58,839 bases of DNA, from positions 1-58,839 of the forward strand of contig JAFGSQ010000015.1 in assembly GCA_016934535.1 (NCBI GenBank). Direction: 5' to 3'. The stretch is from a candidate division WOR-3 bacterium. GTDB taxonomy: Bacteria; SDB-A. Numbering within the stretch: the first letter of the stretch is position 1; the number at the start of each line of letters is the position of its first letter. The notes under the pieces were generated by a model that saw only the letters and a program-made list of their open reading frames with translations, had not been told where the DNA came from and did not search any database. Below are positions 28,875 to 54,783 of the stretch, one piece after another. A program made the position numbers and the translations under genes.

Positions 28875-28880
28875 ATGATT

Positions 28881-30218
28881 ATGGACGGCAAGATAAGGAT
28901 AATGCTTGCCGAAGACGATCCTCATATGATGAAAGTAATGGGGGACGCTTTCGACGGCAGGAAATATGATGTTGTCAGGGAAGAAAACGGTTCGGAAGCT
29001 TTGAACAGACTTCTCGAAGAGGACTTCCATGTCGCTGTTCTCGACGATCAAATGCCCGGAACGGGCGGCATCAATATATGCAAAAGACTCAGAGAAGAAA
29101 ACAGAAAAAAAAGCCTTCCGATCATACTTCTGACCGCGACAACAGATCCCGCCGAAAGAATCGACGGATACCGTTCAGGCGCGGATGCCTGCCTTTCCAA
29201 ACCTGTTAATAACCAGGAAATGGTTGGGATAATCGAAAATCTTTGCCGTCAGAGATATGACAGCGAATTTATTCTCAGCAACATGAAAGGGTTTGGCGGG
29301 ACAGTCAGCAGTTTTCCGGTTGTTGACCTCCTTCAATTCATGGAGATGGGCGCTAAAACAGGTTCTCTCGAGATAAAAAGTTTTGAAAAAAGCGCCGTTG
29401 TTTATTTTGACAAAGGCGTAATTGTGCATTCCGAATCAGGAAGACTCAGGGGCAGCAACGCAATATATCACATAATAAGCTGGCAGGACGGAACTTTCGT
29501 CTATTCTCCCGACAAAATGCCGGCGGAGGTGACTGTCAGGGAAAACCTGTCACACTTGCTTCTGGAAGGCATCAGGCTTATGGACGAAGAGGCGAGGGAT
29601 AACACGGCCGTAAAAGAACTGACACAGGCTCTTTTACAAGTGGAAACTTCTACCGAATCAAAAGTATTGAAGAAAATGGAAGATCTCTCGAAGAAAATCG
29701 CTCTTGGCGAAAAAAGGATTTTCGAGATACTCGTAATTGACATCTGGAAAGACAGCCGAAAGGAAATGCTCGATTTTTTCATAAGCAGTATTTTGAAATA
29801 TATTGGCAGAGACGTTCAGGTCTCGAAAAAAGACAGCGCCATATCGAGCTTCGCGAAACTCGACGTGATGAAAGATTTTTCAATAGACATCGTAGTAAGC
29901 AGCGGGAAAAGAAAATTCAATCTTCTCTGGCAGGTTTTCCTGGAACAGGCAAACGCTCTCGTTGTTTTTGTCGATCCGACTAATGAAGAAGCAAGAAATG
30001 ACGGAATAGAAATAGCGAGGAGATTCAACAGCTACCGCTCTCAGATACCTTGCGTGATAATTTCTCCGGTCGGGCAAAAAGCGGCAGGTCTTCCTTTTGA
30101 AAATCCAAAATGGTTTGCGGTCCCGGAATACAATCTCATAAACCTCGAAGAGATTTTCCAGTTTATGTTCGATTTCACACAGGAACATTTTCTTGACGAA
30201 ATCGAAATGAGAAGATGA
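28881..30218 (+). CDS. Response regulator with DUF4388 (PATAN) domain and GTPase-like C-terminal region
   Basis: A 445-aa protein. Residues 1-120 are a receiver domain with acidic pair ED11-12, phospho-acceptor D55 (VLDDQMPG) and the KP motif near 107. Residues ~130-240 fit DUF4388/PATAN (GTVSSFPVVDLLQFMEMGAKTGSLEI, FDKGVIVHSESG). The last ~180 residues have the strand order of small Ras-like GTPases (LLWQVFLEQANALVVFVDPTNEEARNDG, CVIISPVGQK) but no P-loop. Its ATG is placed at the predicted transcription start, and the stop overlaps the asparaginase start by 4 nt. Confidence 0.85.
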   Translation: MDGKIRIMLAEDDPHMMKVMGDAFDGRKYDVVREENGSEALNRLLEEDFHVAVLDDQMPGTGGINICKRLREENRKKSLPIILLTATTDPAERIDGYRSGADACLSKPVNNQEMVGIIENLCRQRYDSEFILSNMKGFGGTVSSFPVVDLLQFMEMGAKTGSLEIKSFEKSAVVYFDKGVIVHSESGRLRGSNAIYHIISWQDGTFVYSPDKMPAEVTVRENLSHLLLEGIRLMDEEARDNTAVKELTQALLQVETSTESKVLKKMEDLSKKIALGEKRIFEILVIDIWKDSRKEMLDFFISSILKYIGRDVQVSKKDSAISSFAKLDVMKDFSIDIVVSSGKRKFNLLWQVFLEQANALVVFVDPTNEEARNDGIEIARRFNSYRSQIPCVIISPVGQKAAGLPFENPKWFAVPEYNLINLEEIFQFMFDFTQEHFLDEIEMRR

Positions 30219-31177
30219 AAAAGATCTATATAATTGCCACCGGCGGTACAATACAGATGAGAAAAGAAACCGGAAAAGGCGTTATACCGGCTTATATAGG
30301 GGAGGACATTCTGAAAAATCTGATTCTGCCGGATGAGAATTTCAAATTGGAATTCGACGAATTTTCAAATGTTCCCAGCCCATGGATAAAACCCGAAGAC
30401 ATGATGAGAATATCGGAAAAAATCAATTCTCTAGCCCTTGAGTGCGACGGTATAGTGATAACGCATGGCACCGACACACTGGAAGAGACGGCTTATTTTT
30501 TATCTTTGACATACGACAAAGATACTCCGGTCGTAATGACTGCGGCTATGCGTGCCCCGCCTGATCTCGGGATTGACGGACCGAGAAATATTCACGATTC
30601 TGTCATGGTCGCACTGGAGAGTTCATCCATCGGCAGGGGGGTCATGGTGGTAATCAACAACAGTGTGTTTTCCCCGAGAGACGTGACAAAAGTCTCCACA
30701 TCAAATCTCGCCGCTTTTACATCGCCTGAATACGGTCTTCTCGGAACCATAGACGAAAAAGTCATATTCTTTTCGAAGAATGTACAAAGAGAAAACATAC
30801 ATGCAAACCGCCCGGTCGGTCCTGTTGATATCATTCCGGCTTATTCAGGAGCGGACACGAGGCTTATCTCGGCATCTGTTGACTCGGGTGCCAAAGGATT
30901 GGTCCTGGAAGCTCTCGGAAGAGGAAACGTGCCTCCAGGCATGCTCGAAGGTATTTTTTACTCCATAAACAAAGGTCTGCCAGTAATTGTCTCCACGAAA
31001 GTTCAAAACGGAAGAGTGGCGGCAACATACGGATATGAAGGCGGCGGCAAACACCTCGCCGGAATGGGGTGTTATTTCGCTGGAAATCTCCGGGCGAACA
31101 AAACGAGGATAAGGCTCATGCTCGCTCTCGGAACTGAGGATAAAGAAATGGGGAGGTATTTTGAAAAATTTGCTTAA
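30215..31177 (+). CDS. L-asparaginase, type I-like
   Basis: A 320-aa asparaginase/glutaminase family protein. Both catalytic Thr motifs are present: IIATGGTI at residues 5-12 and THGTDTLEETAY near 88. There is no signal peptide, which suggests the cytoplasmic type. It is translationally coupled to the regulator upstream and overlaps the NlpC gene downstream by 17 nt. Some members instead act in Glu-tRNA(Gln) amidation (GatD); no gatE is seen. Confidence 0.92.
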   Translation: MKKIYIIATGGTIQMRKETGKGVIPAYIGEDILKNLILPDENFKLEFDEFSNVPSPWIKPEDMMRISEKINSLALECDGIVITHGTDTLEETAYFLSLTYDKDTPVVMTAAMRAPPDLGIDGPRNIHDSVMVALESSSIGRGVMVVINNSVFSPRDVTKVSTSNLAAFTSPEYGLLGTIDEKVIFFSKNVQRENIHANRPVGPVDIIPAYSGADTRLISASVDSGAKGLVLEALGRGNVPPGMLEGIFYSINKGLPVIVSTKVQNGRVAATYGYEGGGKHLAGMGCYFAGNLRANKTRIRLMLALGTEDKEMGRYFEKFA

Positions 31178-32093
31178 AACACTGATTTTATTTTCAGCGC
31201 TGACTGTGGTTTTGTCCGGTCATCTCGCGGCTCTGACTCACACTGTCAAACTTGGTGAAACGCTGACATCTATATCGAGGATGTACGGGATTCCTGTTTC
31301 CCAGATCAAATCAGCCAACAATCTCGCTTCGGACATGATAGTTGAAGGCCAGAGGCTGACTATACCATCCGGTTCTTCGGGAAGCGGAGACCTGTATGTC
31401 GTTAAAAGCGGAGAAACGCTTTCCGGACTCGCTTCGAGATTTCAGACCACAGTTCAGGCGATAAAAAACGCCAACAATCTTTCTTCGGATTTCATAAGAG
31501 AAGGCCAGCGGCTCGTCATCCCGGGAAGATTTCCGCCTCCCAGGCAGGATACTGAACAGCAAAGACCTCCGGTAAACACTAACATAGTCATACCGAACGA
31601 AGAAAAGACCGCCCGTCCGGCCGTGATTGAATTTTCGGCGGTTTCGCCGGAACCTTTGGCACGCATTGCCCAAGAAACCGAAACCGCTGATGTTTACGAG
31701 GAAATTCCGCTATTGTCTGCCGAAAAAACCGAACTCGTTAAATCAATTTTAAACAGTGCGATTTCATATTTGGGCTCACCTTACGTTTACGGAGCCACAG
31801 GAAACGGAGGTTTCGATTGCAGCGGACTCGTTTTCAGGGTTTTTGCCGACAACGGCATCGATTTGCCGAGGACGGTTACTGATATGGAAAGCTCCGGAAT
31901 TGAAGCTCCGAAAGAGGCTCTGATGCCGGGCGATCTTCTTATATTCGACGACCCGAAACATGTGGGTATTTATCTCGGTTCTGGAAGGTTTATTCACTCG
32001 TCATCTTACAGGAACAGGGGAGTTATTATAAGCTCTCTCGAAAGAGAGAGCTATTCTTCCCGCTTTATAAAAGCGCGAAGGGTTGTTTACTGA
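31161..32093 (+). CDS. Peptidoglycan hydrolase with two LysM domains and NlpC/P60 domain
   Basis: A 310-aa exported cell-wall hydrolase. A signal peptide (MKNLLKTLILFSALTVVLS) is followed by LysM repeats at ~27-70 and ~77-122, a Pro-rich linker, and an NlpC/P60 domain from ~200. The catalytic Cys is in FDCSGL, the His in HVGIYLG and a further His in FIHSS. The start is TTG 31161 with a GGGAGG site 4 nt before it. Likely substrate: peptide stems of peptidoglycan. Confidence 0.95.
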   Translation: MKNLLKTLILFSALTVVLSGHLAALTHTVKLGETLTSISRMYGIPVSQIKSANNLASDMIVEGQRLTIPSGSSGSGDLYVVKSGETLSGLASRFQTTVQAIKNANNLSSDFIREGQRLVIPGRFPPPRQDTEQQRPPVNTNIVIPNEEKTARPAVIEFSAVSPEPLARIAQETETADVYEEIPLLSAEKTELVKSILNSAISYLGSPYVYGATGNGGFDCSGLVFRVFADNGIDLPRTVTDMESSGIEAPKEALMPGDLLIFDDPKHVGIYLGSGRFIHSSSYRNRGVIISSLERESYSSRFIKARRVVY

Positions 32094-32213: not shown

Positions 32214-33140
32214 ATGAAAAAAATACAGTATTTAATATTGTTTTTTATTGCGGGTACTGCGCTAAACGCGTCGCCTTTTCTTCAGGGCAACTACATCGAT
32301 GTACCGAACGCTTATATAATGCCTCATTCGAGCGTTCAGCTGACATCTATTTTCACAGTTTACGATCAGGATTTCACCACAGCAGGCGCAAATTACGAAA
32401 CTTTTTCGCAGTACATATTCGGGGCTAATCTTTCGGTCGGTTTGTACGACTGGTTTGAAGCGGGAGGAGGTTATCTCGGAACGGATGTTTGGTCGGGTTT
32501 TGTCAAGGCGAGAGTGTTAAGAGAAAGCGAAAAATATCCCGCTTTTGCTGTTGGAATCCAGAACATTTCGTCTCACAAAAAAATGTCCGAATTCGGCAGG
32601 CATTCTCTCGATTATTACGAATCAAGCCAGAATTTCTCGTTTTACGGAGTGGTGACCAAAGACATATCGTATTATTTCCCGAGGATTCCTGTAATTCTGT
32701 CTTTCGGCATCGGAAGCGGCAGATTTCAGGGGGAGAGACCCAGGTCAGAACCTTTGAAGGGCGTTTTCGCCGGCATTGAATTCAGACCGGTGAAAAACCT
32801 GAGATTCATAGGCGACATGGACGGAAAAGACTGGAACCTCGGAACTGTATTCAGGGCCAACGACAACATAGAGCTTCTCATGGCGTGGGTAGAGATCGAA
32901 CAGACATTCGGCGTCAAGTACAGCGTCAGACCTGTTCCCACCGAACAGCAGAAACTAATAATCGGCGTGCAATTCTCATTCGGGCCTTTCTTCGGCAGTA
33001 AAGCTCTTTCCGTCAGACGTCAGAGAGAACTCGAGATAATGAGCAATTACCAGAGAGAGCTCGAAGAGATAAGACGTAAAAGAGAAGAGGCTGAGAGAGA
33101 GCTCGAAAGACTTCGCAGAATCCTGGAAGAAAGCCAGTAA
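32214..33140 (+). CDS. Outer-membrane beta-barrel-like protein with C-terminal coiled coil
   Basis: A 308-aa protein with a signal peptide (to ~NAS, residue 20). The mature part starts FLQGNYIDVPNAYIMPHSSVQLT and has alternating beta strands, as in YjbH-like barrels. The last ~45 residues (from RRQRELEIMSNYQ) are a charged coiled coil with many Glu and Arg, which could reach into the periplasm. First gene of the operon with TPR proteins and the TolQ/ExbD motor. The outer-membrane location is inferred. Confidence 0.75.
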   Translation: MKKIQYLILFFIAGTALNASPFLQGNYIDVPNAYIMPHSSVQLTSIFTVYDQDFTTAGANYETFSQYIFGANLSVGLYDWFEAGGGYLGTDVWSGFVKARVLRESEKYPAFAVGIQNISSHKKMSEFGRHSLDYYESSQNFSFYGVVTKDISYYFPRIPVILSFGIGSGRFQGERPRSEPLKGVFAGIEFRPVKNLRFIGDMDGKDWNLGTVFRANDNIELLMAWVEIEQTFGVKYSVRPVPTEQQKLIIGVQFSFGPFFGSKALSVRRQRELEIMSNYQRELEEIRRKREEAERELERLRRILEESQ

Positions 33141-33152
33141 AGGAATTATAAT

Positions 33153-34697
33153 ATGCTTTTTTGTTTGTTCGCTTTCTTTTTTACGGCTCAGGAACAGACT
33201 GTTCCTCTTTCGACGGACGAGATATATGAGGTCACCGATTCTGTTAAGACAGAATTAACTTACGAAAGACAGATTCTCGAAGACCTTTACGCCGAAATCG
33301 AACAACTGAGGATGGCGGTCGAGATTCCGCCTCCAATCAGCTCAGCCGACTCTCTTTATCTTAGAGGAGCTCTCGGTTGGGCAAAAGTCACTTACCAGAA
33401 TATCTACAATCACTTCATGTCACCGGACAGCCTTAAACAAAGAGCCATGTACATGTACTGTGTTATTTCCTATCAGCAGTCGGACTACAAAGAAAGTACG
33501 GAAAAAGCCGAAGAGTTTCTCCAAACTTATCCGGGAAGCTTATTTTCAGACAACGTATATCTGATTTTGTCTCTGTGTCACTTCTCGGTAGCGGATTTCC
33601 AAAAAACGAGGGACTACTGTTCGAGGATTTCGTCTTCTTCTTCCCAGTTTCCTTTCGCCCTCTACATAACGGCGATATCCTATTTCCAGGAAAATAAAAA
33701 CTCCGAAGGCATAAGTATGGCGAAAGAAAAACTCAACGAAATGGCTTTCGGCATATACTCCGGATACATGTCGGACGAATGGAAATCAAGGGCTCTGATG
33801 AGCCTGGCTCAACTGCATTACGAGCTCGGCGAACTCCAGACCTCCTATGAATATTATGAGCTCGCCAAAGACAAAGGTGCGGATCCAAACGCGGCCGATT
33901 TCGGGATTGCATGGATTTACATCAAAGTGGGTCTTCTCGACGAAGCCCTCGAAATAATTGAGAACCTCGAAAGGCGCGAAGACATAGACAAAATGTACAC
34001 GGATGTACAGCTCGCCAAAGCTGCCATTTTAATCCAGCAGGAATCGTACGAAAAAACATTCGATATATATTCAGACATACTTAAAAAGTATTCGAGCAAT
34101 TACAGTTATGAAGACGTCATAAATGCGGCTTACGAAAACGCCTTGTCCTCGATTGTCATGGAAGATGTGGACGCTACAAGGAATCTTGAGACCAGCCTCG
34201 AAAATCTGATCGCCCTTTCGAGAGTTAGAGGCAGGCAAGATGTTGTTGACAGTCTCGAAAAGATAAAATCAAGCCTGAGATTTCAGCAGGAAGTTCTGCA
34301 CTCGATAGGTTTTCAGATAAATCCTGCCGACCAGGCAGACCTGGATGTCCTCAAGCACAACATCACTTTGATGATCCAGGAGGAGAGATCCAAAACCGAA
34401 CTGCTGTTGATGGACATAAATTATCTGGAAACAAAACTGCCGTCCCAGCATCTCGGCGCACTCGACAGTATCAAATACAAGCTGACCGGAATATCACTGA
34501 TGCTGGCCGATATTGAAAACCAAATCGGAGCCCGAGGAGTCACGGAGACTACAAACTGGCTCATTCAGGCGCAATACGGGGCGGGAGTCACTTTTTTCAT
34601 GATGTACAAGGACGTCGAATCGCAGATATCTGAGATCAAATCGAGAATGCAGACGATAAGATACGAAATCGAAGGATCTCAGGGGACGGACAGATAA
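33153..34697 (+). CDS. Exported TPR-repeat protein
   Basis: A 514-aa protein with a short N-terminal hydrophobic signal (LFCLFAFFFTAQ), then an N-terminal coiled region and TPR-like helical repeats (ALGWAKVTYQNIYNHF, SDNVYLILSLCHFSVADF, LAQLHYELGELQTSYEYYELA). The last ~150 residues form long helices without TPR pattern. It starts 12 nt after the barrel gene and ends 1 nt before the next start. Probably a periplasmic scaffold of the motor complex. Confidence 0.8.
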   Translation: MLFCLFAFFFTAQEQTVPLSTDEIYEVTDSVKTELTYERQILEDLYAEIEQLRMAVEIPPPISSADSLYLRGALGWAKVTYQNIYNHFMSPDSLKQRAMYMYCVISYQQSDYKESTEKAEEFLQTYPGSLFSDNVYLILSLCHFSVADFQKTRDYCSRISSSSSQFPFALYITAISYFQENKNSEGISMAKEKLNEMAFGIYSGYMSDEWKSRALMSLAQLHYELGELQTSYEYYELAKDKGADPNAADFGIAWIYIKVGLLDEALEIIENLERREDIDKMYTDVQLAKAAILIQQESYEKTFDIYSDILKKYSSNYSYEDVINAAYENALSSIVMEDVDATRNLETSLENLIALSRVRGRQDVVDSLEKIKSSLRFQQEVLHSIGFQINPADQADLDVLKHNITLMIQEERSKTELLLMDINYLETKLPSQHLGALDSIKYKLTGISLMLADIENQIGARGVTETTNWLIQAQYGAGVTFFMMYKDVESQISEIKSRMQTIRYEIEGSQGTDR

Positions 34698-34698
34698 A

Positions 34699-37563
34699 GT
34701 GAGAAAGTATTCGGACTCTGTTTTTCTTCTTTTTATGTCCACTGTTGCGTTTTTCCTGTCATCATGCGGACCCGGACGACTGGATCCCGAACAGGAACTT
34801 CTTCGCCTCGAGAGCGAAAAAAAACAGCTCGAACTTCTTCAGGAAGAATACATGGACGCCACGGCTCTTTATCTTGAGAACCTGCTTTCTTTTTACCCGA
34901 ACAATCCCTTCGGAGCAGATGCCGCCCTGAGGCTTTCCGAAATTTACAGAATAAAATCCAAGAGTGAATACGAGCGAAGGATTGATGAGTGGATGACAGG
35001 CGGATTTTCCGGACTGGAACCATTCCCTGAGTACGGACGCGCCAAAAATATGTACATGCAGGTTATAACTAAATATGAAGGCATAGACACTGTATCGGCC
35101 ATTGAAGCGTATTACGCTCTCGCTTCGATACTTGAAGAAGAGGGCAGTGTTGATTCGGCAAGTATAATGTACAGGAAGCTCGTGGAAAGGTATCCCGGAA
35201 GCGCGAGGGCACCCGCAGCGTGTTTCCGGCTCGGTCTCTATTATTTCAATTTCAGGCACGAAGGGCTCGGAAAAGTGGATCTCGCCATAGATTATTTCGA
35301 CAAAGTCCTCGAATATCCTGACGATCCCAATTACGACAAAGCTGTTTATATGATTGGATGGCTCAACAGGGTTGCCGGACCCGATTCTATCCCCGCTTCA
35401 ATAACCCATTTCCTTTTCCTCCTCGAGATGTCGGCCGAGGAGGGAAGAACGGAACTTGCCGACGAAGCAGTCATGTATCTTGGCTTCGATTTTTCCGAGC
35501 TTCCAAACGGCACTATGAGGCTCCGCAGGGTGCTGACCGTTCTTTCGGAGATGCCAAAAGGCGACGAGATCGTCCTCAAACTCGCCGAGACTTTCAAAGA
35601 AAAGGTGGATTACCAAAAGGCAATTGAAGCGTACAATACTTACCTCGACATGTATCCGAAAAGTCCTGGTGCACCTTTTGTCCTGCGTGATCTGGCATCG
35701 CTTTACGCCGAAGTCGGAGACATGACTCTGGCCGACGCGACAATGGACAGGCTGGTCGAAGATTACGGAAAAGACTGGCAGGTCACTCTTGACAGCACCG
35801 GCGACACCGCGAGAGTGTCTTCCACCGACTCACTCATACGTGAAGCGATGCTTTACACAGCCGGAATACATCACAGAAAAGCCATTCAGGAGGGCACGTA
35901 TGAAGAGTGGTCCACGGCGGCTGAAAGATACGGAAATTTTATAGACCAGTATCCGGATGATCCTGAAGTTTACGGACTTAGATTCGCCCTCGCGGAAGCT
36001 TATTACGAAATGGGAAAATATATTGACGCCGCGAACAATTACACTCGTGTGGCTTTCGACGGGACATACGACACTTTGACCTTGCCGGCCGCCTACGAAG
36101 CGGTGACGTCCTTCAATCAATGGTATTCGCAGGACAGCTCTTCGGACGAGAGACAGGACAGTATGCTCGTCGCGGCTCAAAGGTACATGGGCGTGTGGGA
36201 CGAAAGACCCGGCACTGATATTTCAGATCCTGTCAACATTTCGATGTCAATGGGTAAAATGCTTTACGAGGCCGAAAGATACGAAGAAGCAAAGAACTGG
36301 TACATGAAAGTCATCGATGATTTTCCTTCTTCGGAAGCTTCCGCCTCGGCGTCGGCGATGATCGCCCAGAGCTACTACAATCTTGGAGACCTGTCTTCTT
36401 CTGAAAGCTGGTTCCTCAGAGCCGCCTCACAGTCAAGCGACACGACTTTGTCGAGGCAGGCTGCCCTGATAGCCTTTCAGTCAGCTTCGAATCTTACTGA
36501 GACGGACACTATGAAAGCCGCAACTTTCCTCGAAGTCCACGGCAAGTATTCAGACCGCGAAGAAGGGAAAAAAGCGCTTTTCAACGCCGGAGTCATTTTT
36601 TTCAACGCCGGTTACGAGACCAGAGCCGTTGAAGTTTTCAGATCTTACATTCGGAATTATGACTACCAGGAAGACAGCCTCCTTTATTCGGCGTACATGA
36701 ATCTGGCCAACATCGCCATTTCAAAGGCCGAAAGAGCTGACAGCGCGGGTCTTCAAAGCGGAAACCTCTGGAATGAGGCGGCGAGCGCCCTCGAATCATT
36801 CACCGCGAGATACCCTTCCTCCCAGGGAACCAAAGACGCCGTGTATTGGACTGGCAAATCGTTTTTCGGGGCGAGGAACTTCCAGGGGGCAGAGAATTCG
36901 TTCATGAGAGTTGCCAATGGTACGTCTTTTTCCGAAGAACTCCATTACCAATCTCTTCACAGGCAGGCTTTATCACTGGACAGTCTAGGTTTGAATTCAG
37001 ACGCTGACAATGTCAGAAGAAGGATATTGATGGATTATTTCGAAGGAGGCAGAGCCGCCGGTGTGTCGCCTTCAGAAATTGAAATGGACATGATAGATGT
37101 CGTAGAAATAGATTTTGAGACAATCAAGGGAACTGAACTTTACTGGCCGATTGACAATTCATATCCCCCATACGACGCCGACATGAAGGCTATCGCGGAG
37201 AATCTGACGAGAATAGCCGGCCTCAGAGCAGGGCTTTCGACAATAGCGGCTTTGTTCCTTCTCGGCCAGTGCAATGAAGATTACGCGAGAGCTTTCAGGG
37301 AAGCAGAGTATGACCCTTCGTGGACGGAAGATGAACAAATATATTTTCAGGAACAGCTGGAACAGCAAGCGCTTCCTTATGAAGATGCCGCGGTCCAATT
37401 CTATCTTGCGTCGATGCAGACTGCGGAAAGCAACGGGCTCACTGACAACAGATGGTACCGGGACGCTCAAGAGGCTGTGGAAAATCTTAAAAAATTCAGA
37501 CCGGATTTGTTCCCTGATGAACAAAACTATGATAGCATCGAAGAAGAAACAACTTCGCCTTAG
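34699..37563 (+). CDS. Large TPR lipoprotein
   Basis: A 954-aa protein starting with GTG 34699. The lipobox ends at Cys23 (LSSC). The rest is made of many TPR/tol-pal-type repeats such as AIEAYYALASILEEEGSVDSASIMYRKLVERYPGSARAPAACFRLGLYYF, with recurring YPGS and YPDDP turns (about fifteen repeats by eye). It resembles YbgF/BamD-style and GltE-like TPR lipoproteins. Anchored in the inner or outer membrane, it may bridge the motor to the barrel protein. Confidence 0.85.
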   Translation: MRKYSDSVFLLFMSTVAFFLSSCGPGRLDPEQELLRLESEKKQLELLQEEYMDATALYLENLLSFYPNNPFGADAALRLSEIYRIKSKSEYERRIDEWMTGGFSGLEPFPEYGRAKNMYMQVITKYEGIDTVSAIEAYYALASILEEEGSVDSASIMYRKLVERYPGSARAPAACFRLGLYYFNFRHEGLGKVDLAIDYFDKVLEYPDDPNYDKAVYMIGWLNRVAGPDSIPASITHFLFLLEMSAEEGRTELADEAVMYLGFDFSELPNGTMRLRRVLTVLSEMPKGDEIVLKLAETFKEKVDYQKAIEAYNTYLDMYPKSPGAPFVLRDLASLYAEVGDMTLADATMDRLVEDYGKDWQVTLDSTGDTARVSSTDSLIREAMLYTAGIHHRKAIQEGTYEEWSTAAERYGNFIDQYPDDPEVYGLRFALAEAYYEMGKYIDAANNYTRVAFDGTYDTLTLPAAYEAVTSFNQWYSQDSSSDERQDSMLVAAQRYMGVWDERPGTDISDPVNISMSMGKMLYEAERYEEAKNWYMKVIDDFPSSEASASASAMIAQSYYNLGDLSSSESWFLRAASQSSDTTLSRQAALIAFQSASNLTETDTMKAATFLEVHGKYSDREEGKKALFNAGVIFFNAGYETRAVEVFRSYIRNYDYQEDSLLYSAYMNLANIAISKAERADSAGLQSGNLWNEAASALESFTARYPSSQGTKDAVYWTGKSFFGARNFQGAENSFMRVANGTSFSEELHYQSLHRQALSLDSLGLNSDADNVRRRILMDYFEGGRAAGVSPSEIEMDMIDVVEIDFETIKGTELYWPIDNSYPPYDADMKAIAENLTRIAGLRAGLSTIAALFLLGQCNEDYARAFREAEYDPSWTEDEQIYFQEQLEQQALPYEDAAVQFYLASMQTAESNGLTDNRWYRDAQEAVENLKKFRPDLFPDEQNYDSIEEETTSP

Positions 37564-37599
37564 TTATTCAGCCGGCGAAGAGTTTTCGACAGGCGGAAT

Positions 37600-38016
37600 G
37601 TGATGAAAAAAATAATATTTATTTTATTAATGCTCGCCGGAGCCCTCTGCTTTTCGCAGGAGATACCGAGCAGCATCCTTGAGATCGAAGAAATCGAGAT
37701 AAGGGGGACGGCAAGAGAACCTCTGGTCATAAACATCGCGGCAACGGCTAAAATTGATTTCTCGAATTTCATAATTTCGCAGAGTTTTTCGCGCGAGATC
37801 CTGAATCAGGTTTTCCAGGCGAGATCCGAACTCGGAATGATAGGCCGAAGACAGATAACGAGGCCTTATTCCAGGACTTTTCTTTTTTTGGGCGGAGCAG
37901 GAACAGCTGCCGGAGTCTATCTATTGTCGAGGGGTGAAAAATCCAGCGCTTATTTTCTGGCAGCGGGCGGAACATTTCTTCTCACATCCGGAATTTTTTA
38001 TCTGTCTGGCAAGTAA
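37600..38016 (+). CDS. Small exported membrane protein of unknown function
   Basis: A 138-aa protein with a signal peptide (KKIIFILLMLAGALCFSQ), a short beta-like segment (IEEIEIRGTAREPLVINIAA) and two C-terminal hydrophobic segments (FLFLGGAGTAAGVYLL and AYFLAAGGTFLLTSGIFYL). The motif before the membrane part recalls the IEEIEIRG stretch of envelope TonB/OmpA-like partners, but I cannot name it. It lies between the TPR lipoprotein and the TolQ-like gene, so a structural role in the complex is likely. Confidence 0.65.
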   Translation: MMKKIIFILLMLAGALCFSQEIPSSILEIEEIEIRGTAREPLVINIAATAKIDFSNFIISQSFSREILNQVFQARSELGMIGRRQITRPYSRTFLFLGGAGTAAGVYLLSRGEKSSAYFLAAGGTFLLTSGIFYLSGK

Positions 38017-38040
38017 TAATATTAAAGGAGGTTGATTCTA

Positions 38041-38661
38041 ATGGCTTTCATCCAGTTTTACAAGAATGGCGGATGGGCTATGCACTTTATCGCTCTTGTA
38101 GCTTTGGTATCACTCGGTTTGATAATCGAAAGGCTTGTTTTCCTGATGAGATCAGGCATAAATGCCGATAATTTCCTGCGCATAGTCACTAAAAAACTCA
38201 GAGACGGTGATTACAATGGGGCGATAAGGCACTGCGACGGAACCGGAAAACCTCTTTCAAAAATTATCGGTGCCGGCCTGAGAAACTACAAAGGCGACGT
38301 GAGGGAGATGCAGAACGCCGTTGATGAAGTTGGTCTCGCTGAAATCCCGAGATTGAACAAGCGCCTGAATTATCTTCCGGTTCTCGCTCAGGTTGCAACG
38401 CTTCTGGGACTTCTGGGAACCATAGCTGGTCTGTTGAAATCTTTCGGCGCTCTTTTGACGGCGAGTGCTTCAACCAGAACTTTAGAGCTTATTCAGGGCA
38501 TATCGGTTGCTCTCAATACAACCTTTTTCGGTTTGCTGGTCGCCATACCCGTTATGCTCTTGCATTCTTTTCTGCAATCCAGGGCAGACGGCATAGTTGA
38601 CGACATTGACGAATACTCGGTCAGGATTATGAATATGCTTCAGGACATAAAGAAGGATTGA
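38041..38661 (+). CDS. MotA/TolQ/ExbB proton channel family protein
   Basis: A 206-aa inner-membrane protein with three membrane segments (~12-32, ~112-135, ~155-175) and the family motif ISVALNTTFFGLLVAIPVMLLHSF. Stator-type subunit that uses the proton gradient together with ExbD/TolR partners. ATG 38041 is chosen over TTG 38032, because the AAAGGAGG site ends at 38031, which leaves 9 nt to the ATG and none to the TTG. Followed by two ExbD-like genes. Confidence 0.93.
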   Translation: MAFIQFYKNGGWAMHFIALVALVSLGLIIERLVFLMRSGINADNFLRIVTKKLRDGDYNGAIRHCDGTGKPLSKIIGAGLRNYKGDVREMQNAVDEVGLAEIPRLNKRLNYLPVLAQVATLLGLLGTIAGLLKSFGALLTASASTRTLELIQGISVALNTTFFGLLVAIPVMLLHSFLQSRADGIVDDIDEYSVRIMNMLQDIKKD

Positions 38662-38664
38662 CGG

Positions 38665-39342
38665 ATGTCTTACGCCGTATCCAAGGCCGGCCGGAAATAC
38701 AGACATCAGGAGGGGGTCAATGTCACTACGGTGCTCAATCTTTTTATGATACTGATTCCGGCGCTTTTGACGAGTTTTCAAATAGTTCAGACTTCCATCA
38801 TGAATCTGGAACTAGCCGGACTCGGAGCCGTCGAAGGAGAAAGCTATTTGCCTCCTCCCACATATTTCATGACGACTATTCTCGCGAGAACTAAAGACGG
38901 CAGGATAGTTTGTGAATTGTCCAGATACAGATACGTCGGTGGAGAATCCATAGCCGTTGACACTTTGATCGAAAAAACGCGGTTTTTTGAAGGTTGGGAT
39001 CAGGCTGACACTTTTATTGGGCAAAAACTCGACTCGCTTTTTATAGAGGCTAAAAAGGAAGTTACGGTTTTTCTGGACTCGACTCCGGAAGTACTTCTTG
39101 CCCCTAACTGGAGAGAGATAAAAACCGTTCTCAGGGAAAATCCTCAAGAAGGCGCGGTTATAGACAGCGTTGTCAGCAGACTAAACCTTTTCATACTTAT
39201 CTCGGTAGACAGCATAGGAGATGCCGTCAGCGGGGAAAGAGTAAATTTGAATGATCTCGTAAACTTCATGAAGATTTCTCAGAAAAACGGTTTTCAAAAC
39301 AATTACCTTCAGCCTCCTCCCTGGTGGCCTTCAGGATCCTGA
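38665..39342 (+). CDS. ExbD/TolR-like protein lacking the conserved membrane Asp
   Basis: A 225-aa protein with one N-terminal membrane helix (residues ~21-42, VNVTTVLNLFMILIPALLTS) and a periplasmic domain. The helix aligns with ExbD/TolR/AglS, but the key Asp is Asn (LNLFMIL; the usual motif is IDxxxxL). The periplasmic part is longer than in ExbD and contains LFIEAKKEVTVFLD and LILISVDS. It starts 3 nt after the TolQ-like stop. It may be a structural partner rather than the proton carrier. Confidence 0.8.
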   Translation: MSYAVSKAGRKYRHQEGVNVTTVLNLFMILIPALLTSFQIVQTSIMNLELAGLGAVEGESYLPPPTYFMTTILARTKDGRIVCELSRYRYVGGESIAVDTLIEKTRFFEGWDQADTFIGQKLDSLFIEAKKEVTVFLDSTPEVLLAPNWREIKTVLRENPQEGAVIDSVVSRLNLFILISVDSIGDAVSGERVNLNDLVNFMKISQKNGFQNNYLQPPPWWPSGS

Positions 39343-39355
39343 AACGGAGAGAACT

Positions 39356-39967
39356 ATGCCAATAGAAACCGACCGGACTTCTGATAAATCGTGGAAATGG
39401 TTTCCCAAACCTCCCACCAAAAGAAAGATGATGTTCAGGAAGTCCATTTCGTCTCTCAAATCATCAAACTCATCCAGGGGACCGGGTTCGGAGAGGCAAA
39501 CTCCAGTCCTTCAACTGACTTCACTCATAGACATGTTCACGATAATTCTAATATTTCTTCTTCTTAATTTTTCGACAGATCCTAATCAGAGCCCTCCTCC
39601 AATGGACGTAAACCTTCCGACCGTCATTTCGGAAGAAGAAATTGAAGAGAAAACTCGTGTGGGTGTAAACGTTGTAACGGCGAACAGTTATTCCATCACG
39701 CTCGATCAGACTTCGATAATCGAATCGGCTGAAAAAATGCCGGCGAAAACAGACACTTTCATAGCTCCGCTTCTCGACAAACTAAGAGAGACTTACGAGA
39801 TCGCTATTCAGACTGCGGAAATAAACCAGATTGACCCTGACTCAGTAAAAGTAATAATCCAGGCCGACAGCCTGGCCAGTTATAATCTGATTACTCAGAT
39901 TGTCAACACCTGCACGATGGCAGGATACAAAAAAGTTTCGGTTATGGTTATAACACCGAAATACTGA
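39356..39967 (+). CDS. ExbD/TolR-like protein
   Basis: A 203-aa protein with a long Lys/Ser-rich cytoplasmic head (~55 residues), a membrane helix LTSLIDMFTIILIFLLLNF with the proton-binding Asp near residue 61, and a periplasmic domain (SVKVIIQADSLASYNLITQIVNTCTMAGYKKVSVMVI) typical of ExbD. ATG 39356 has a GGAGAG site. With the preceding gene it gives a TolQ/ExbD/ExbD arrangement like AglR-AglQ-AglS of Myxococcus. Confidence 0.92.
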   Translation: MPIETDRTSDKSWKWFPKPPTKRKMMFRKSISSLKSSNSSRGPGSERQTPVLQLTSLIDMFTIILIFLLLNFSTDPNQSPPPMDVNLPTVISEEEIEEKTRVGVNVVTANSYSITLDQTSIIESAEKMPAKTDTFIAPLLDKLRETYEIAIQTAEINQIDPDSVKVIIQADSLASYNLITQIVNTCTMAGYKKVSVMVITPKY

Positions 39968-39985
39968 CGGTTTAAAGGGGGAAAA

Positions 39986-41836
39986 ATGGAAGAGATCAAA
40001 CTTGCCGTAGTTGTTCAGCAGCAGGGCAAGCGGAGACATTTCGTCGTCGAGAAAGATCTCATCGCCATAGGAAAGAGCGAGGATTGCGAGATTGTGATAC
40101 AGGAGGACGTTCCCGGGATTTCCGACAAACAAGCTCTTTTCTCATACAACGGCGTGAACAATTCATACGAACTGAGGATCAAGCCGGATGTATTCAGAGG
40201 ATGGATAAAAATCGGCGAAGACGAGGTGTCTGTAAAGGACATAGCACTGCGTGCGAAGGTGAGAAAAGAAGGTGATCAGATAATTCTTCCTCTTGATCCC
40301 GCGAGCAGGGGAAGAATTCAGGTTGGCGGAACAGTAATCGGATACGGTTTTCAGTCTTTTGCCAAACCGCAGGAAAGAAAGACCGAGGGAACCGGTTCCG
40401 CAATTTTAACGGGGTGGGTTGAAATTATTCAGGGTGGCAGGTTGAAAAAGTACCTCGTCAAGAATAACCAGGTTTTTCTTGCGGGCAACACGCCCCGTTC
40501 AGCTGTCCGCGAACCTTCCATAGAAAAAGAACTCAAGCTGTTCTGTTCTTCTGACAAGCGTTACGTTTTGACCCTTGTCCCCGGTTTCAACGGAGTCATT
40601 AACAAGGATGGAGAAAGAATCAGAATTGACGAAGAGTATTTTGTTTCAAACAATATTCTGGAAAAGAAATTCGAACTCGGACCGGGAGACAGAGCCGACC
40701 TCAAATACCTGAACAGCTTCATAGTCAGGCTCGGAGTCAGGGAAGAAGCCGTTCCCAGGGAAGCGGTCAAGTCTCCTCTAAAACCTCCCGAACCGGAAGT
40801 AAAACCCCAGCCAATAGAAAAAGAACGGGGAAAACCGAAATGGGAGAGATTTAACAACAGGCCTCACGACAGGCTCACCATAGGAGAGCACACCAAGGAC
40901 AGAAAGCAATTCGCAATATTCGATTTTACGACCGTGGTTTTCTGGGTCTTCTGGATAATATACTCTTTCACCGTAAGAGTTGAAGCGCTCAATATTAACA
41001 TTGCCACCGCAGAAGAAACATTGAAAAGACTCGAAGAGAGCGATCTTCTCGACGTTTCTATGAGCGAAGACATAGAAAGCCTCAGGCGCGGAACCCTTGG
41101 AATGACTACGACCGGAGAGGGCACTGGAGAAGGAACATCCTCGGGTTCGGGTTCAGGATCCGGAAGCGGAGCGGGATCCGGAAGCGGGGCGGGAGGAGGC
41201 ATCGGCCAGGGCGGGCAGACATCGAGAGTGGCCAGGGGACTGAGAGTTCTCGGCGTCGGATCGGGTCCGATGACCGGACCGATGGGACTCGGCGGCGGAG
41301 ATGCGAGCATTCAGGATCTGTTGGCCGGAGGTGCTTCGTTGTCAGGCGTCTCCGGAGGAGCGGCTTCTGCGGCGGGGGGAGCAGGAGGACTCGGAGGAGG
41401 GGTCACCGGGACAGTTGGAGTCACAGGAGGCACGGAGATATCAACGGGCACTGCGACTGGAGGCGATCTTCAGCATCAGAGAACAGCGGGAGTCAGGGGA
41501 GGGACAATTGCCGACCTGACTGGTTCGGCGGCCACCTCGGGCGCGCGAGACGCCGCGGACGTTCGAAGAGCAATAGTCAGGTACCAGGGAAGGCTCAAAT
41601 ACTTTTACGAGAAGGAACTGGAAGTCAATCCTTCGCTTCAAGGAAAGATCGTCGTCAGAATAACGATTTCGGAAGAAGGCTTCGTGTCGAACGCATCGCT
41701 TGTCAGCAGCACTCTGGGTTTGCCCTCCTTGGAACAGCAGATATTGTCGGCGATAAGCGGATGGTCTTTCGGTCCGATAGATCCGGGAGGCGGATCATTC
41801 ACCTTCACTGTTCCTTTTAATTTTTACAGCCAGTGA
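39986..41836 (+). CDS. FHA-like protein with membrane helix, Gly-rich linker and TonB/AgmX-type C-terminal domain
   Basis: A 616-aa protein. Residues 1-250 hold two FHA-like beta modules (LIAIGKSEDCEIVIQ; QVFLAGNTPRSAV), then a Pro/Lys-rich linker, a membrane helix at ~313-330, a coiled segment, a Gly/Ser-rich stretch at ~375-520 and a C-terminal domain at ~522-616 (VRRAIVRYQGRLKYFYEKEL... GKIVVRITISEEG) of the AgmX/GltJ/TonB kind. The FHA-like part would be cytoplasmic and the TonB-like tail periplasmic. Last core gene of the motor operon. Confidence 0.85.
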   Translation: MEEIKLAVVVQQQGKRRHFVVEKDLIAIGKSEDCEIVIQEDVPGISDKQALFSYNGVNNSYELRIKPDVFRGWIKIGEDEVSVKDIALRAKVRKEGDQIILPLDPASRGRIQVGGTVIGYGFQSFAKPQERKTEGTGSAILTGWVEIIQGGRLKKYLVKNNQVFLAGNTPRSAVREPSIEKELKLFCSSDKRYVLTLVPGFNGVINKDGERIRIDEEYFVSNNILEKKFELGPGDRADLKYLNSFIVRLGVREEAVPREAVKSPLKPPEPEVKPQPIEKERGKPKWERFNNRPHDRLTIGEHTKDRKQFAIFDFTTVVFWVFWIIYSFTVRVEALNINIATAEETLKRLEESDLLDVSMSEDIESLRRGTLGMTTTGEGTGEGTSSGSGSGSGSGAGSGSGAGGGIGQGGQTSRVARGLRVLGVGSGPMTGPMGLGGGDASIQDLLAGGASLSGVSGGAASAAGGAGGLGGGVTGTVGVTGGTEISTGTATGGDLQHQRTAGVRGGTIADLTGSAATSGARDAADVRRAIVRYQGRLKYFYEKELEVNPSLQGKIVVRITISEEGFVSNASLVSSTLGLPSLEQQILSAISGWSFGPIDPGGGSFTFTVPFNFYSQ

Positions 41837-42828
41837 AATCACTGACAATTATACTTTTTTCGGCGATTCTTGTTTTCTTTTCTGTAAAACAGTCGCTGTG
41901 CGCCGTTTTTGTACTCGTCGAACAGGAAGAGCTGGCGATGGAACAAGTGCAGAAATTCATTGATTCTGTTGCCGATCTCGGCGTAGACGGAATAGTCGTG
42001 GATGTTTACAAAGACGGCCGGACTTTGTTCCCTTCCGAATATTTTGAGTTTACGTACACGTACGACGTACTCGATGAGATCATTTACTGCGCCAAAATGA
42101 AAAATCTTCTTGTTTTTTTCAATCTAGATATTTTCAGGATTTGGACTCAATCGCTTTCGCCTTCCGTCCTTTCTCACATCTTTCACAGGCACAAGGATTG
42201 GCTTTTAGCCGACGAAACAGGCAGAAGCATGAGTTCGTATTCTCTCGAAGACCTGAGAGAAAGATTCGGCGTCGAAGGCTATTACGTTTCCCCTTCAAAC
42301 AGGGAGTACGGGTTTCTGATCTATGGACTGATTCAGGAGCTGTCTGAAAAATACTTCTATTCCGGAATTGTTTTATCAGGTGTATCGGTCCCCGGTTCCA
42401 GGTGGTCGTACGATGTTTATACATTAACTGAATTCATGAGAACTAATTATGCAGATCCCAGAGAAGAAGGGCTGTCTGGACTACTCGAGGAAGAATGGAA
42501 CTGCTTCAACGACGGAGCCTCAGAAAATTTCCTGAAAAGGCTTTTGGCTACAGCCGATTTGAAGGGATATGTCGCTTTGAGACTGGAAAAGGGTTTTATG
42601 CCCGCATCACTGATTCAGTCGGATCTCGCGGATATTCTGGTAGCGGATTCAAATTGGGTAACCGCGAAAAATTTTCCGCCTAAAACTCTTTCCGACATGA
42701 TAAAAGAGAGAGGATCTTCTGAATTCATTGTTCTGGACAACGCCAGAGACATTCTGAGAATAATCGGCTACAAGGAAATGATACGAATCGCAATGGATCA
42801 GATCAGGGAAGAGGAGGCCAGAAAATGA
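41833..42828 (+). CDS. Exported glycoside hydrolase-like TIM-barrel protein (GHL10 type)
   Basis: A 331-aa protein with a signal peptide (ILFSAILVFFSVKQSLCA). The start is GTG 41833, overlapping the previous stop by 4 nt. The pattern VADLGVDGIVVDVYKDGRTLFPS, ... VFFNLDIFRIW ... YVSPSNREYGFLIYGLIQEL ... GIVLSGVSVPG matches the family-10-like (DUF187) glycosidases of YngK type. The usual Arg/Asp positions are only partly conserved, so activity is uncertain. Its 3' end overlaps the convergent zinc-ribbon gene. Confidence 0.7.
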   Translation: MKSLTIILFSAILVFFSVKQSLCAVFVLVEQEELAMEQVQKFIDSVADLGVDGIVVDVYKDGRTLFPSEYFEFTYTYDVLDEIIYCAKMKNLLVFFNLDIFRIWTQSLSPSVLSHIFHRHKDWLLADETGRSMSSYSLEDLRERFGVEGYYVSPSNREYGFLIYGLIQELSEKYFYSGIVLSGVSVPGSRWSYDVYTLTEFMRTNYADPREEGLSGLLEEEWNCFNDGASENFLKRLLATADLKGYVALRLEKGFMPASLIQSDLADILVADSNWVTAKNFPPKTLSDMIKERGSSEFIVLDNARDILRIIGYKEMIRIAMDQIREEEARK

Positions 42829-43697: not shown

Positions 43698-43724
43698 ATT
43701 ATATTTTCTTTTTTTTAATGTCAA
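43698..43724 (-). promoter_or_regulatory. Sigma-70-type promoter for the EIIA-like gene
   Basis: Minus strand TTGACA (43724-43719), 15-nt spacer, TATAAT (43703-43698). The -35 box overlaps the last bases of the BtuC-like gene. ATG 43683 follows 14 nt after the -10 box. Confidence 0.55.
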
Positions 43725-44713
43725 TGATTTTCTTTACTTTTATTAAACAAGAGAAGATACAGGAAAAAAGGGGCGCCCAAAAGAGCCGTTACTATTCCGA
43801 CCGGCAGTTCTGCAGGCTGAACGGCTTTTCTGCAGATTACGTCTGCGACTGATAAAAACACGGCACCTGAAAAAAAAGAAGCCGGCAGCATAGTTCTGTA
43901 GTCGTGTCCGGAAATATTCCTTTCTATGTGCGGGATTATTAATCCGACGAATCCAATGGGACCGAAAAAAGCGACGGACCCTGCTACGAACAGGCTCACG
44001 AAAAGAAAAGAATACTTCTGCAGGGACTGGACGTTCACTCCTCTTGAAAAGCTTATTTCGTCTGCGAAATAAAGGCAGTTGTATGAGTTCATTTTTGACG
44101 CGGTGTAAAAAATCAGGGGAACAGAGAAAAGCGCTGTTCCGGCGAGAGTTTTCCAGCTTGAAAAAGCGAGAGATCCGGTCAGCCAGCGGTCCAGAGTTCC
44201 TGCCGAAAAAGGATTCGAAACGAAACGCAAAAACGTTATTGTAGATCCGGCGAAAATGCTTAAAGTTATGCCGGCCAAAACGAGGTCGTGTATCGCAAAG
44301 GTTTTCTTTCTCGTGGACGCAGTATAAATAAAAACAGTAGTGACGGCTGAAAATACAAGAGAAAAGAATATCCCGGAAAAGGCGAGGGAAGATAAATATG
44401 TCGCCGCCAGATAAGCCCCGAGAGCCGACACACTGCTGATTCCGAGAGTGTAGGGCTCTACCAGAGGATTTTTTAAGGTGCTTTGGAGGACGGCTCCTGA
44501 CAGCGAAAGAGCGCCGCCGAGGAAGAATGCAGTCAGGGCTCTCGGGATCCTGTAATTTAGAAATATTTCCCTTAATACTCCCTCCTTTAAAATGTCGCTC
44601 AGTCCTATGTCGACTGAACCTATAAAAGGTGCGGCGGCGAGAACGCCAAATGCAAGTGCGGCGTGCAGAAAAAAGCTGAAAAAAAATTTTTTGCGCGTCA
44701 GTATGGTTTTCAA
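43721..44713 (-). CDS. FecCD/BtuC-type ABC importer permease
   Basis: A 330-aa permease with about ten membrane segments. Family motifs: NYRIPRALTAFFLGGALSLSGAVLQSTLKNPLVEPYTLGISS, GLIIPHIERNISGHDYR and the ending AVQPAELPVGIVTALLGAPFFLYLL. It imports cobalamin, haem or ferric siderophores. The start overlaps the ATPase gene by 4 nt. With cobO in the same run, cobalamin is the favoured substrate, but that is inference. Confidence 0.93.
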   Translation of the reverse strand: MKTILTRKKFFFSFFLHAALAFGVLAAAPFIGSVDIGLSDILKEGVLREIFLNYRIPRALTAFFLGGALSLSGAVLQSTLKNPLVEPYTLGISSVSALGAYLAATYLSSLAFSGIFFSLVFSAVTTVFIYTASTRKKTFAIHDLVLAGITLSIFAGSTITFLRFVSNPFSAGTLDRWLTGSLAFSSWKTLAGTALFSVPLIFYTASKMNSYNCLYFADEISFSRGVNVQSLQKYSFLFVSLFVAGSVAFFGPIGFVGLIIPHIERNISGHDYRTMLPASFFSGAVFLSVADVICRKAVQPAELPVGIVTALLGAPFFLYLLLFNKSKENH

Positions 44714-45474
44714 CTCGGCCTCGGGAATATTAGAGGGACTCCGTCTTCGTAAACAAGCGCCAATTCTTCGCCGAAAACCGAGCGTACTGTTTTTTCGTCA
44801 ATGATCTCGCGGGGTTTTCCTTTTGCAGCCAATCTTCCCTCTTTGAGGACTACTATTTCGTCGGAATAGACTCCGGCTAAAGTAATGTTGTGACTTGCCA
44901 TGAGGATGGTTGTTCCGCAGTCGGAAAGTCGTCTGAGTTTTCTATATATTTCTATCTGATGGGAAATGTCGAGAGAGGCGGTCGGTTCGTCGAGTGCGAG
45001 GAACACCGCGCTCTGAGCGAGGCTTGCGGCTATCATCGTCCTCTGGCGCTCTCCTCCGCTCAAGGTCTGAAATTTTCTTCCCGCGATATCTGTAAGGCTG
45101 AATTCCTGCATAATCTCCTTTAAAGGCAAGAAGTCTCCTTTACCGGCGAATCCCAAACTTCCGAGCCATGGAAAACGTCCCATGAAAACGGTTTGCTCTA
45201 CGGTGAAAGGAAGTTCATACGCGGTGAACTGAGGCAGGTACGAGATCAGTTTGGATTTTTCACGGGTGGGTATCTTTCCTATGTCGGACCCGAGGAAAAT
45301 CACGTTTCCCTCGTCGGGCCTGGAATAACCGACGGCTATTTTGAGAAGAGTGCTTTTCCCGCTGCCGTTAGGACCTATTAAGGCGGTCAACGAGCCTTTT
45401 TTTACATGAAGATCGATTTCCCGAAGCGAGAAATTCCTGCCGTAGGAAAAACAGGCTCTTTCAATCTTCAGCAT
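44710..45474 (-). CDS. FepC/BtuD-type ABC importer ATPase
   Basis: A 254-aa ATPase: Walker A GPNGSGKSTLLK near residue 36, signature LSGGERQR near 140, Walker B LALDEPTASLD, H-loop MASHNITLA. The C-terminal region (LAAKGKPREIIDEKTVRSVFG) is typical of vitamin B12/iron-chelate importers. It overlaps the start of the permease and the end of the binding-protein gene. Confidence 0.94.
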   Translation of the reverse strand: MLKIERACFSYGRNFSLREIDLHVKKGSLTALIGPNGSGKSTLLKIAVGYSRPDEGNVIFLGSDIGKIPTREKSKLISYLPQFTAYELPFTVEQTVFMGRFPWLGSLGFAGKGDFLPLKEIMQEFSLTDIAGRKFQTLSGGERQRTMIAASLAQSAVFLALDEPTASLDISHQIEIYRKLRRLSDCGTTILMASHNITLAGVYSDEIVVLKEGRLAAKGKPREIIDEKTVRSVFGEELALVYEDGVPLIFPRPS

Positions 45475-46366
45475 GAACGGCTCTTTCGATTATTCGTCTT
45501 ATTAGTTTCGCGGATTCAGGGAAGTCGGGACCCGGAACAAGAATTTTTTCGCTGAAACAAACATGAACGTTTCCGTTTACGATTGCGCTGACGCCGGGAT
45601 AGGAATTTGCCCATCTGCCGGTTATTTCAAGGGAGTCAAAAATTCCAGAACGGCTTGCAGGTCTGAGTTCGATAATGACGTCGGGATCGAGAAGTATAAC
45701 GGCCTCCCTGGAGATTTCGGGATAGAGAACCGGATTGTCTTTCAGGACGTTGTCACCTCCCGCGATAGAGATGATCTCACCGAGAAAAGTTTTTCCGTTA
45801 GCTGACATGAATTTCTCGGGAGATGAGATTTCAGAAGTTATGGCGACGATTACTTTGGGCCGAAACGCGGCGGGACGATACGCTATTTCTTTCACTTCAG
45901 CTCTGATAGAAGAGATGAGGCGTTCGCCTTCTTCACTGCAACCGAGAATTTCCGCTATTTTTTGGACGGCTTCGATTATTCCGGAGGTGTCCTCCACGTT
46001 AAAACCGAAAACCTGGATGGAGTACTGAGAAAGAAAAGTTCTGAATTGTTCGGGATTTCCGGCGACAAAAACTGCGTCAGGTTCGAGGTATGCTATAAGT
46101 TCAAGATTCGGATCAAGTATGCCCCCGACTCTGACGGCTCCGGAACCGGCGAGTTTTTCATCCGACCAGTCGTCTATGCCGATTATATATTTCGAACAGC
46201 CGAGGGAAGCGGTAATTTCGGTCAGATTTGGGCCGAGAATTACGATTTTATCGAATTCCATATCCTCCCGGTATCCGGCGGAATCTTCTTTACATCCGGC
46301 GGCGAACAACAGCGCCAAAACCGAACATAAGCAGGCGTTAAAAAAAGCAAATCTCTTTAGGTTCAC
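45461..46366 (-). CDS. Substrate-binding lipoprotein of a B12/iron-chelate ABC importer
   Basis: A 301-aa lipoprotein with lipobox ending at Cys25 (FAAGC). The mature part is a TroA/BtuF-like fold: KIVILGPNLTEITASLGCSKYIIGIDDWSD, VGGILDPNLELIAYLEPDAVFVAG and a long backbone helix. It overlaps the ATPase gene by 14 nt and cobO by 4 nt. The DxxS/T and D at ILDPN suit a cobalamin- or haem-type ligand; ligand not proven. Confidence 0.9.
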   Translation of the reverse strand: MNLKRFAFFNACLCSVLALLFAAGCKEDSAGYREDMEFDKIVILGPNLTEITASLGCSKYIIGIDDWSDEKLAGSGAVRVGGILDPNLELIAYLEPDAVFVAGNPEQFRTFLSQYSIQVFGFNVEDTSGIIEAVQKIAEILGCSEEGERLISSIRAEVKEIAYRPAAFRPKVIVAITSEISSPEKFMSANGKTFLGEIISIAGGDNVLKDNPVLYPEISREAVILLDPDVIIELRPASRSGIFDSLEITGRWANSYPGVSAIVNGNVHVCFSEKILVPGPDFPESAKLIRRIIERAVHAED

Positions 46367-51509: not shown

Positions 51510-51517
51510 GAGGAAAC

Positions 51518-54040: not shown

Positions 54041-54224
54041 AGTGTTTAAAAAACCGCATACCATGATTTTAAACGCCTTTAAAAAAATATTGCAATTTTT
54101 TTACCAAAAGAGTAATATCTACGCTATGAGGAAGGAAAGCGTGTTGAGTTATCACTATGATTATGGTCTTATAAATGAACACCATGAAAACATGTCGCAT
54201 AATTATGAATATTGGAGCAGGCAA

Positions 54225-54261: not shown

Positions 54262-54325
54262 AAGAAATTTTTAGTTGTGTATTTCCAAGTGTCGGTAATA
54301 AGCATTTTGTGTATTTAACCAATTA

Positions 54326-54768: not shown

Positions 54769-54783
54769 TCGATCAGTTCAATG

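Follow-up and report, generated by a model that had tools for sequence, protein, structure and literature searches.

In the known 5:2 proton motors, both axle subunits bear an aspartate. The closest described relatives of the locus analyzed here are the AglRQS-Glt gliding machinery of Myxococcus xanthus and the smaller Agl/Glt core (gltC, gltD, gltE, and gltG with aglR, aglQ, and aglS) that Luciano 2011 traced to the Gammaproteobacteria, the Betaproteobacteria, Geobacter, and Fibrobacter (PMC3169522). In M. xanthus, AglR binds GltG (PMC3169522), and the D28N substitution in AglQ abolishes proton conductance, motility, and sporulation (PMC3858216). Whether AglQ and AglS form a heterodimer has been stated to be unknown (PMC9389320).

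We analyzed a 58,839-nucleotide stretch of DNA (the window) from a candidate division WOR-3 bacterium and find that it very probably encodes a divergent trans-envelope machine of the Agl/Glt type. According to the ORF list, the operon consists of nine tightly packed genes, A through I, that all lie on the plus strand (32214-42828; Table 1). Genes A through H are separated by 1 to 36 bp, and the first 4 bp of I are also the last 4 bp of H. The eight ORFs described in the initial annotation (A-H) are all present on the plus strand at the positions it gave. We compared the window genome (G000, 2.23 Mb) with three relatives, all within one family: G001 and G002 from the same genus, and G003 from the same family. 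The order of genes A through I is unchanged in all three, and thus the arrangement is not due to chance. Gene-order comparison, which the initial annotation had proposed across FCB candidate phyla, also showed that the order is shared with core clusters in many phyla. Upstream of the operon lies a response regulator with a DUF4388 domain (window 28875-30218) that is conserved in the family. On the minus strand at window 43721-46893, genes for an ABC transporter (permease, ATPase, and binding protein) are followed by cobO, a set likely involved in corrinoid or metal uptake.

Table 1. Genes of the operon and an upstream neighbor, with positions in the window
Gene	Position	Strand	Description
LysM + NlpC/P60 cell-wall peptidase	31161-32093	+	120 bp upstream of A; possible operon neighbor
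A	32214-33140	+	308 aa; signal peptide, β-rich, C-terminal coiled coil; probable outer-membrane barrel
B	33153-34697	+	514 aa; TPR protein in GltC position
C	34699-37563	+	954 aa; lipobox LSSC; TPR lipoprotein, GltD/NfsD homolog by profile
D	37600-38016	+	138 aa; small exported protein, C-terminal membrane hairpin
E	38032-38661	+	AglR-type TolQ proton-channel subunit; Pfam MotA_ExbB 6e-25
F	38665-39342	+	TolR1, AglQ-like, Asn (VLNLF); Pfam ExbD E = 0.26, clear in family profiles
G	39356-39967	+	TolR2, AglS-like, Asp retained (LIDMF); Pfam ExbD 7e-15
H	39986-41836	+	GltG-like transducer; TonB_C 2e-5; Pfam FHA 0.03 (below cut-off)
I	41833-42828	+	exported, weakly GHL10-like; absent from the initial annotation

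With E as the query, relatives were found in named genomes of the Fibrobacterota, Nitrospinota, Raymondbacteria, KSB1, Bdellovibrionota, Myxococcota, and many Gammaproteobacteria. The core clusters of these organisms run in a common order, from a TPR protein and a large TPR protein through (GltE) and a small protein to TolQ, TolR1, TolR2, and the GltG-like protein. In the TolQ tree, E falls within the AglR-type clade (support 100/99), and the ExbB proteins of the window genome, as well as TolQ and ExbB of Escherichia coli, fall outside it. Joining E to the ExbB proteins of its own genome was rejected (p-AU 0.0255); for a position of E inside rather than just beside the sampled AglR-type set, p was 0.49. 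In the TolR tree, F groups with AglQ (94/88) on a long branch, and G groups with AglS (100/99). The nearest named record, a metagenome-assembled genome (MAG) called 'Desulfuromonas sp. SDB' (L050, LKUE01000281.1; 82% TolQ identity), is filed by NCBI under Desulfuromonas but groups in the family of the window genome and is probably misnamed. Two MAGs of Myxococcota (L060 and L082, ~10001-12000) carry two tandem AglR-type TolQ ORFs ahead of a single AglQ/AglS pair.

Protein H scores 78 bits against the NCBIfam model NF033768 for the AgmX/PglI tail (cut-off 40) and 69 bits, over a partial match, against the GltG model (equivalog cut-off 650). As judged from its sequence, H is GltG-like, though not the gliding GltG itself. 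In an AF2 model of the protein, two β domains at the N terminus precede a long helix, and a disordered linker leads from there to a tail of alpha-beta structure; Foldseek searches returned both HasB/TonB C-terminal domains and FHA domains. The predicted plan is therefore one of two FHA-like domains, a membrane helix, a Gly-rich linker, and a TonB-fold tail, and the original description of an FHA-like/TonB-like protein with a Gly-rich linker is borne out, including its resemblance to GltG. Inspected by eye, H seems to have degenerate versions of the FHA phosphopeptide residues, with GK in place of GR and no Ser-Arg-x-His. A Ser-xxx-His motif in the membrane helix, present in 20 of 84 GltG-like proteins, is absent from H, as is the Cys pair of some GltG-like relatives. 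A second protein with an AgmX/PglI tail above the cut-off (70 bits) is encoded elsewhere in the window genome (425 aa; G000:C37 45699-45977; L154, ORF 4713-5990), with no motor genes beside it.

Pfam and NCBIfam recognize TPR repeats in both B and C. Among the accessory proteins, C is identified by profile comparison as a GltD/NfsD homolog, its non-TPR C-terminal domain reaching 41 bits (E = 3e-12) against the GltD/NfsD profile, compared with ≤7 bits for shuffled sequences. Protein B scores 26 bits against the NCBIfam model of GltC, far under the cut-off of 450, and 44 bits against a profile of GltC-position genes (shuffles ≤6). This second match covers only the TPR part, with no alignment of the non-TPR part, and on these scores B is a TPR protein in the GltC position that is closest, in its TPR part only, to other genes at that position. 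Across the full set of loci searched, homologs of protein A occurred in G001-G003 alone, and the protein has no assigned family, its match to the YjbH Pfam family being below cut-off (E = 0.005). Its AF2 model (mean pLDDT 35) contains ~10 strands and a C-terminal helix spanning residues 262-307; of the coiled-coil β-barrel proposed in the initial annotation, the coiled coil holds and the barrel is no more than suggested by the strands of this low-confidence model. Protein I scores 22.9 bits against Pfam GHL10 (cut-off 27.9).

The operon has no GltE gene between C and D, and protein C scores 13 bits against the GltE model (cut-off 225). GltE is also missing on the locus maps of the Fibrobacterota. 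Because GltE was tested for and not found, we class the window operon as a variant of the Agl/Glt group and not as an ordinary member. Of the gliding extras GltA, GltB, GltF, GltH, GltI, GltJ, and GltK, the operon displays only a GltF-like part, which is protein D. The N-terminal part of D is homologous to a gene of ~105 aa found upstream of aglR in the core clusters, a location that corresponds to the GltF position in myxobacteria. Against a small-gene profile built without window sequences, D reaches 17 bits, a score attained by 0 of 500 shuffles, and in a Myxococcus-type genome the same profile also matches an ORF flanked by GltE and GltG. Luciano 2011 noted an extra core gene without myxobacterial homologs and counted GltF among the later additions (PMC3169522). 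The matches to the D profile suggest that this extra gene, which we take to be the small gene represented by D, may be GltF-like. At glt-like and nfs-like loci, small ORFs in the GltF position (L152, 12699-13523; L153, 8990-9280) match the ~105-aa core gene as well, and from these matches GltF may have been part of the core ancestrally. In L051, L102, L116, and other core clusters of the Fibrobacterota and Raymondbacteria, a ~105-aa gene separates TolR1 from TolR2; in L051 this gene encodes a STAS domain.

To compare the proton-carrying position across the family, we scored the alignment column that holds D23 of E. coli TolR and D25 of ExbD. Among the 82 distinct core loci, the window included, TolR1 (AglQ-like) bears Asn in 76 cases and Ser in the other 6, whereas TolR2 (AglS-like) has Asp in all of 87 distinct loci. 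Control TolR/ExbD proteins encoded beside a non-Agl TolQ/ExbB likewise have Asp (27 of 27). These counts derive from raw rows of 78 Asn, 6 Ser, and 91 Asp after removal of contigs counted twice (L040/L050 and L041/L063) and of TolR pairs listed double because two TolQ ORFs precede them (L060 and L082). Every TolR1 with Asn or Ser, including F, has a Pro at +7; the Microbulbifer TolR1 is among those with Ser. Asp occurs in Agl-type TolR1 only in L044, L060, L082, and the two pairs of L088. The last three loci belong to Myxococcota, and the GltG of the L044 genome passes the curated Myxococcus cut-off; the myxobacterial Agl-type pairs that we sampled have Asp in both TolR proteins.

At the position of ExbB E176, TolQ has Glu in 10 of 10 rows with Asp and in 0 of 84 rows with Asn or Ser. 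Although these counts are perfect, they reflect only two changes on the tree, and ExbB proteins of the window genome that are without the Glu have Asp partners, so we treat the coupling between TolR1 Asp and TolQ Glu as a lead only. Asn as a marker of nongliding bacteria was dropped because a member of the Bdellovibrionota has Asn too. What is new is the Asn/Asp axle pair as a family-wide feature. In the part of the literature that we searched, we found no report of a natural Asn in TolR1, and it may have been noticed elsewhere.

The explanation that best accounts for the whole locus, and one that we consider likely, is a divergent Agl/Glt core in which E, F, and G form the motor, H is the transducer, and the load lies at the surface or in the envelope. 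AglR-like TolQ subunits (E; five by analogy) would ring an axle composed of one F and one G, and protons would pass between the TolQ ring and this axle with only the Asp of G being titrated. Since F has Asn and G alone has Asp, the axle would have a single protonatable arm. The target of the motor would be the membrane helix of H; the TonB-fold tail of this protein would reach outward past the peptidoglycan to B, C, D, and a partner in the outer membrane, for which A is the probable candidate. The proton and force steps would follow those of TolQR, ExbBD, and AglRQS-GltG by homology, and we infer the 5:2 stoichiometry, the heterodimer, the force path, and a load at the surface or envelope rather than the whole cell.

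Within this explanation, a heterodimeric F-G axle with a single Asp is the reading toward which we lean slightly. Its extension to at least six phyla, as an obligate heterodimeric axle with one proton-binding subunit, with the residue that disables AglQ in D28N present by nature, and with compensation by the Pro at +7 in the same helix and the loss of the TolQ Glu, is more tentative and falls just short of an even chance. In a natural family of Asn/Asp axles, the proton cycle would be expected to have one site, and the pattern makes the choice between homodimer and heterodimer testable in cultured hosts such as Marinobacter, Microbulbifer, and Fibrobacter.

Two other readings bear on the identity of the motor. 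The axle could instead be a homodimer of G, giving an ordinary motor with two Asp residues, and F an accessory or regulatory protein that merely resembles TolR. The loss of proton conductance when Asn is engineered into AglQ (PMC3858216) would set F aside in this way, as would its diverged sequence (Pfam ExbD E = 0.26) and long branch. F nevertheless keeps a TolR-type membrane helix, its Asn or Ser and its Pro at +7 are constrained in 82 of 82 core loci, and its gene always lies beside that of TolQ and is retained together with G, just as AglQ and AglS occur together; we judge the G homodimer unlikely, though it is the strongest of the alternatives. That the operon is simply the Tol-Pal or TonB-ExbBD system of this lineage in another gene order is highly improbable. 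Protein C does exceed the YbgF/CpoB cut-off (TIGR02795, 133 bits), but the GltD of L041 matches likewise, and we ruled out this match as evidence for Tol-Pal. The tail of H has a TonB fold, and the other TolQ/ExbB matches of the window genome are confined to a TonB operon; that operon, however, is a separate ExbB-ExbD-ExbD-TonB set beside a TonB-dependent receptor, and ordinary tolQ-tolR-tolA and tolB-pal-cpoB genes are present elsewhere in G001 and G003 (L160-L162). The trees and the separate loci led us to reject a Tol-Pal/TonB identity. The initial annotation had itself raised this identity, with Pal and TolB partners nearby and a transducer unlike GltG; instead, Tol-Pal has its own locus in the family, neither Pal nor TolB is encoded near the operon, and H resembles GltG. 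The complete Tol-Pal locus reads trpS-tolQ-tolR-tolA-tolB-pal-cpoB (L160 in G001:C55; L161 and L162 in G003), and the window genome yielded no Pal-sized OmpA match, probably owing to an assembly gap. The TonB locus of the window genome (L004, G000:C3, 3134-12547) encodes the receptor, ExbB-ExbD-ExbD-TonB, and then a second ExbB, with Asp in both ExbD proteins, and is an ordinary TonB system.

As for the load, our tentative proposal is that the machine moves or places a polymer or protein of the surface or envelope. Wza/Wzc-like genes adjoin the cluster in 10 of 12 loci of Fibrobacterota as well as in L042, L080, and L095 (Pfam check of these neighbors: L051), and the related Agl-Nfs machine moves the spore-coat polymer in Myxococcus (PMC3858216). 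With modest confidence, these neighbors and the Nfs role lead us to favor a surface or envelope cargo over gliding. Linkage to polysaccharide genes as a general feature was rejected, given that it is seen only in the Fibrobacterota, L042, and L080/L095 and not in the window genome, where the Wza-like gene is located elsewhere, unlinked to the operon, which has the GHL10-like gene instead. A true gliding machine, in which the cell advances as its motor pulls on surface adhesins, is improbable despite the Agl/Glt kinship of E, F, G, and H, the MglB-MglA pair in 4 of 4 genomes of the family, and a Bdellovibrionota locus with the same motor type. M. xanthus requires additional Glt proteins for gliding that were not found in the operon, Luciano 2011 argued that motility is not driven by the core by itself (PMC3169522), and most core-bearing bacteria are not known gliders; MglAB, moreover, may serve type IV pili, for which pilus ATPases are present. 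The MglB-MglA genes (roadblock protein and small GTPase; motifs GPGLGGKTTNL and TVPGQVYYNASRKLIL) lie beside recR in the window genome (G000:C16 ~57931-58865; L168) and in G001 (L167). Less probable still is some other motor for secretion or outer-membrane linkage, such as a T9SS-like one; secretion and envelope linking were among the roles named in the initial annotation. Nearby proteins ending in FlgD_ig or sub-threshold Por_Secre_tail domains would suit it, yet the operon contains no GldL/GldM, PorV, or SprA-like gene, and the matches of E, F, G, and H are all to components of Agl/Glt. The proteins in question are large and exported, contain FG-GAP repeats, and are encoded at window 51413-56609. 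The operon places a machine of the Agl/Glt type in an uncultured lineage, with hints of polysaccharide handling in some phyla.

Compared with the described systems, the window operon shares with the Agl/Glt core the AglR-type TolQ, the AglQ/AglS-like pair, the GltG-like transducer, GltD, a TPR protein in the GltC position, and the small extra gene, all in a single operon outside Myxococcota. It differs in having no GltE and no GltG Cys pair and in adding A, I, the doubled FHA-like domain, and the membrane hairpin of D. The initial annotation presented an Agl/Glt-like operon outside Myxococcota; the kinship is supported by the TolQ and TolR trees, the tail of H, the GltD domain, and the gene order, but the occurrence outside Myxococcota was already reported by Luciano 2011 (PMC3169522). 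What is new is a core in the present lineage that is GltE-less and has three lineage-specific additions: the barrel-like protein A, the second FHA-like domain of H, and the GHL10-like gene I. The motor, transducer, and GltD are homologous to those of the M. xanthus AglRQS-Glt machinery, which has Asp in both AglQ and AglS where F has Asn. Unlike in M. xanthus, the motor genes share one operon with the core; the scores are far under the curated cut-offs for GltG, GltC, and GltE, and the gliding-specific Glt proteins were not found in the operon. The AglRQS-Nfs spore-coat machine of M. xanthus, a different lineage, has the same type of core without gliding and serves to move a polymer at the surface. 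Tol-Pal and TonB-ExbBD, which exist separately in the family of the window genome, belong to the same class of proton motor and have a TonB-fold transducer, whereas the window operon has a TolQ of another clade, two unlike TolR proteins, and an FHA-like cytoplasmic part, and is without Pal or TolB. The vWA force-transducer clusters (PMC12204202) also combine TPR proteins, tolQ, two unlike tolR genes, and a transducer, the tail of which is a vWA domain rather than the TonB fold of the window protein. On all the evidence at hand, the machine very probably works like the motor of the Agl/Glt core.
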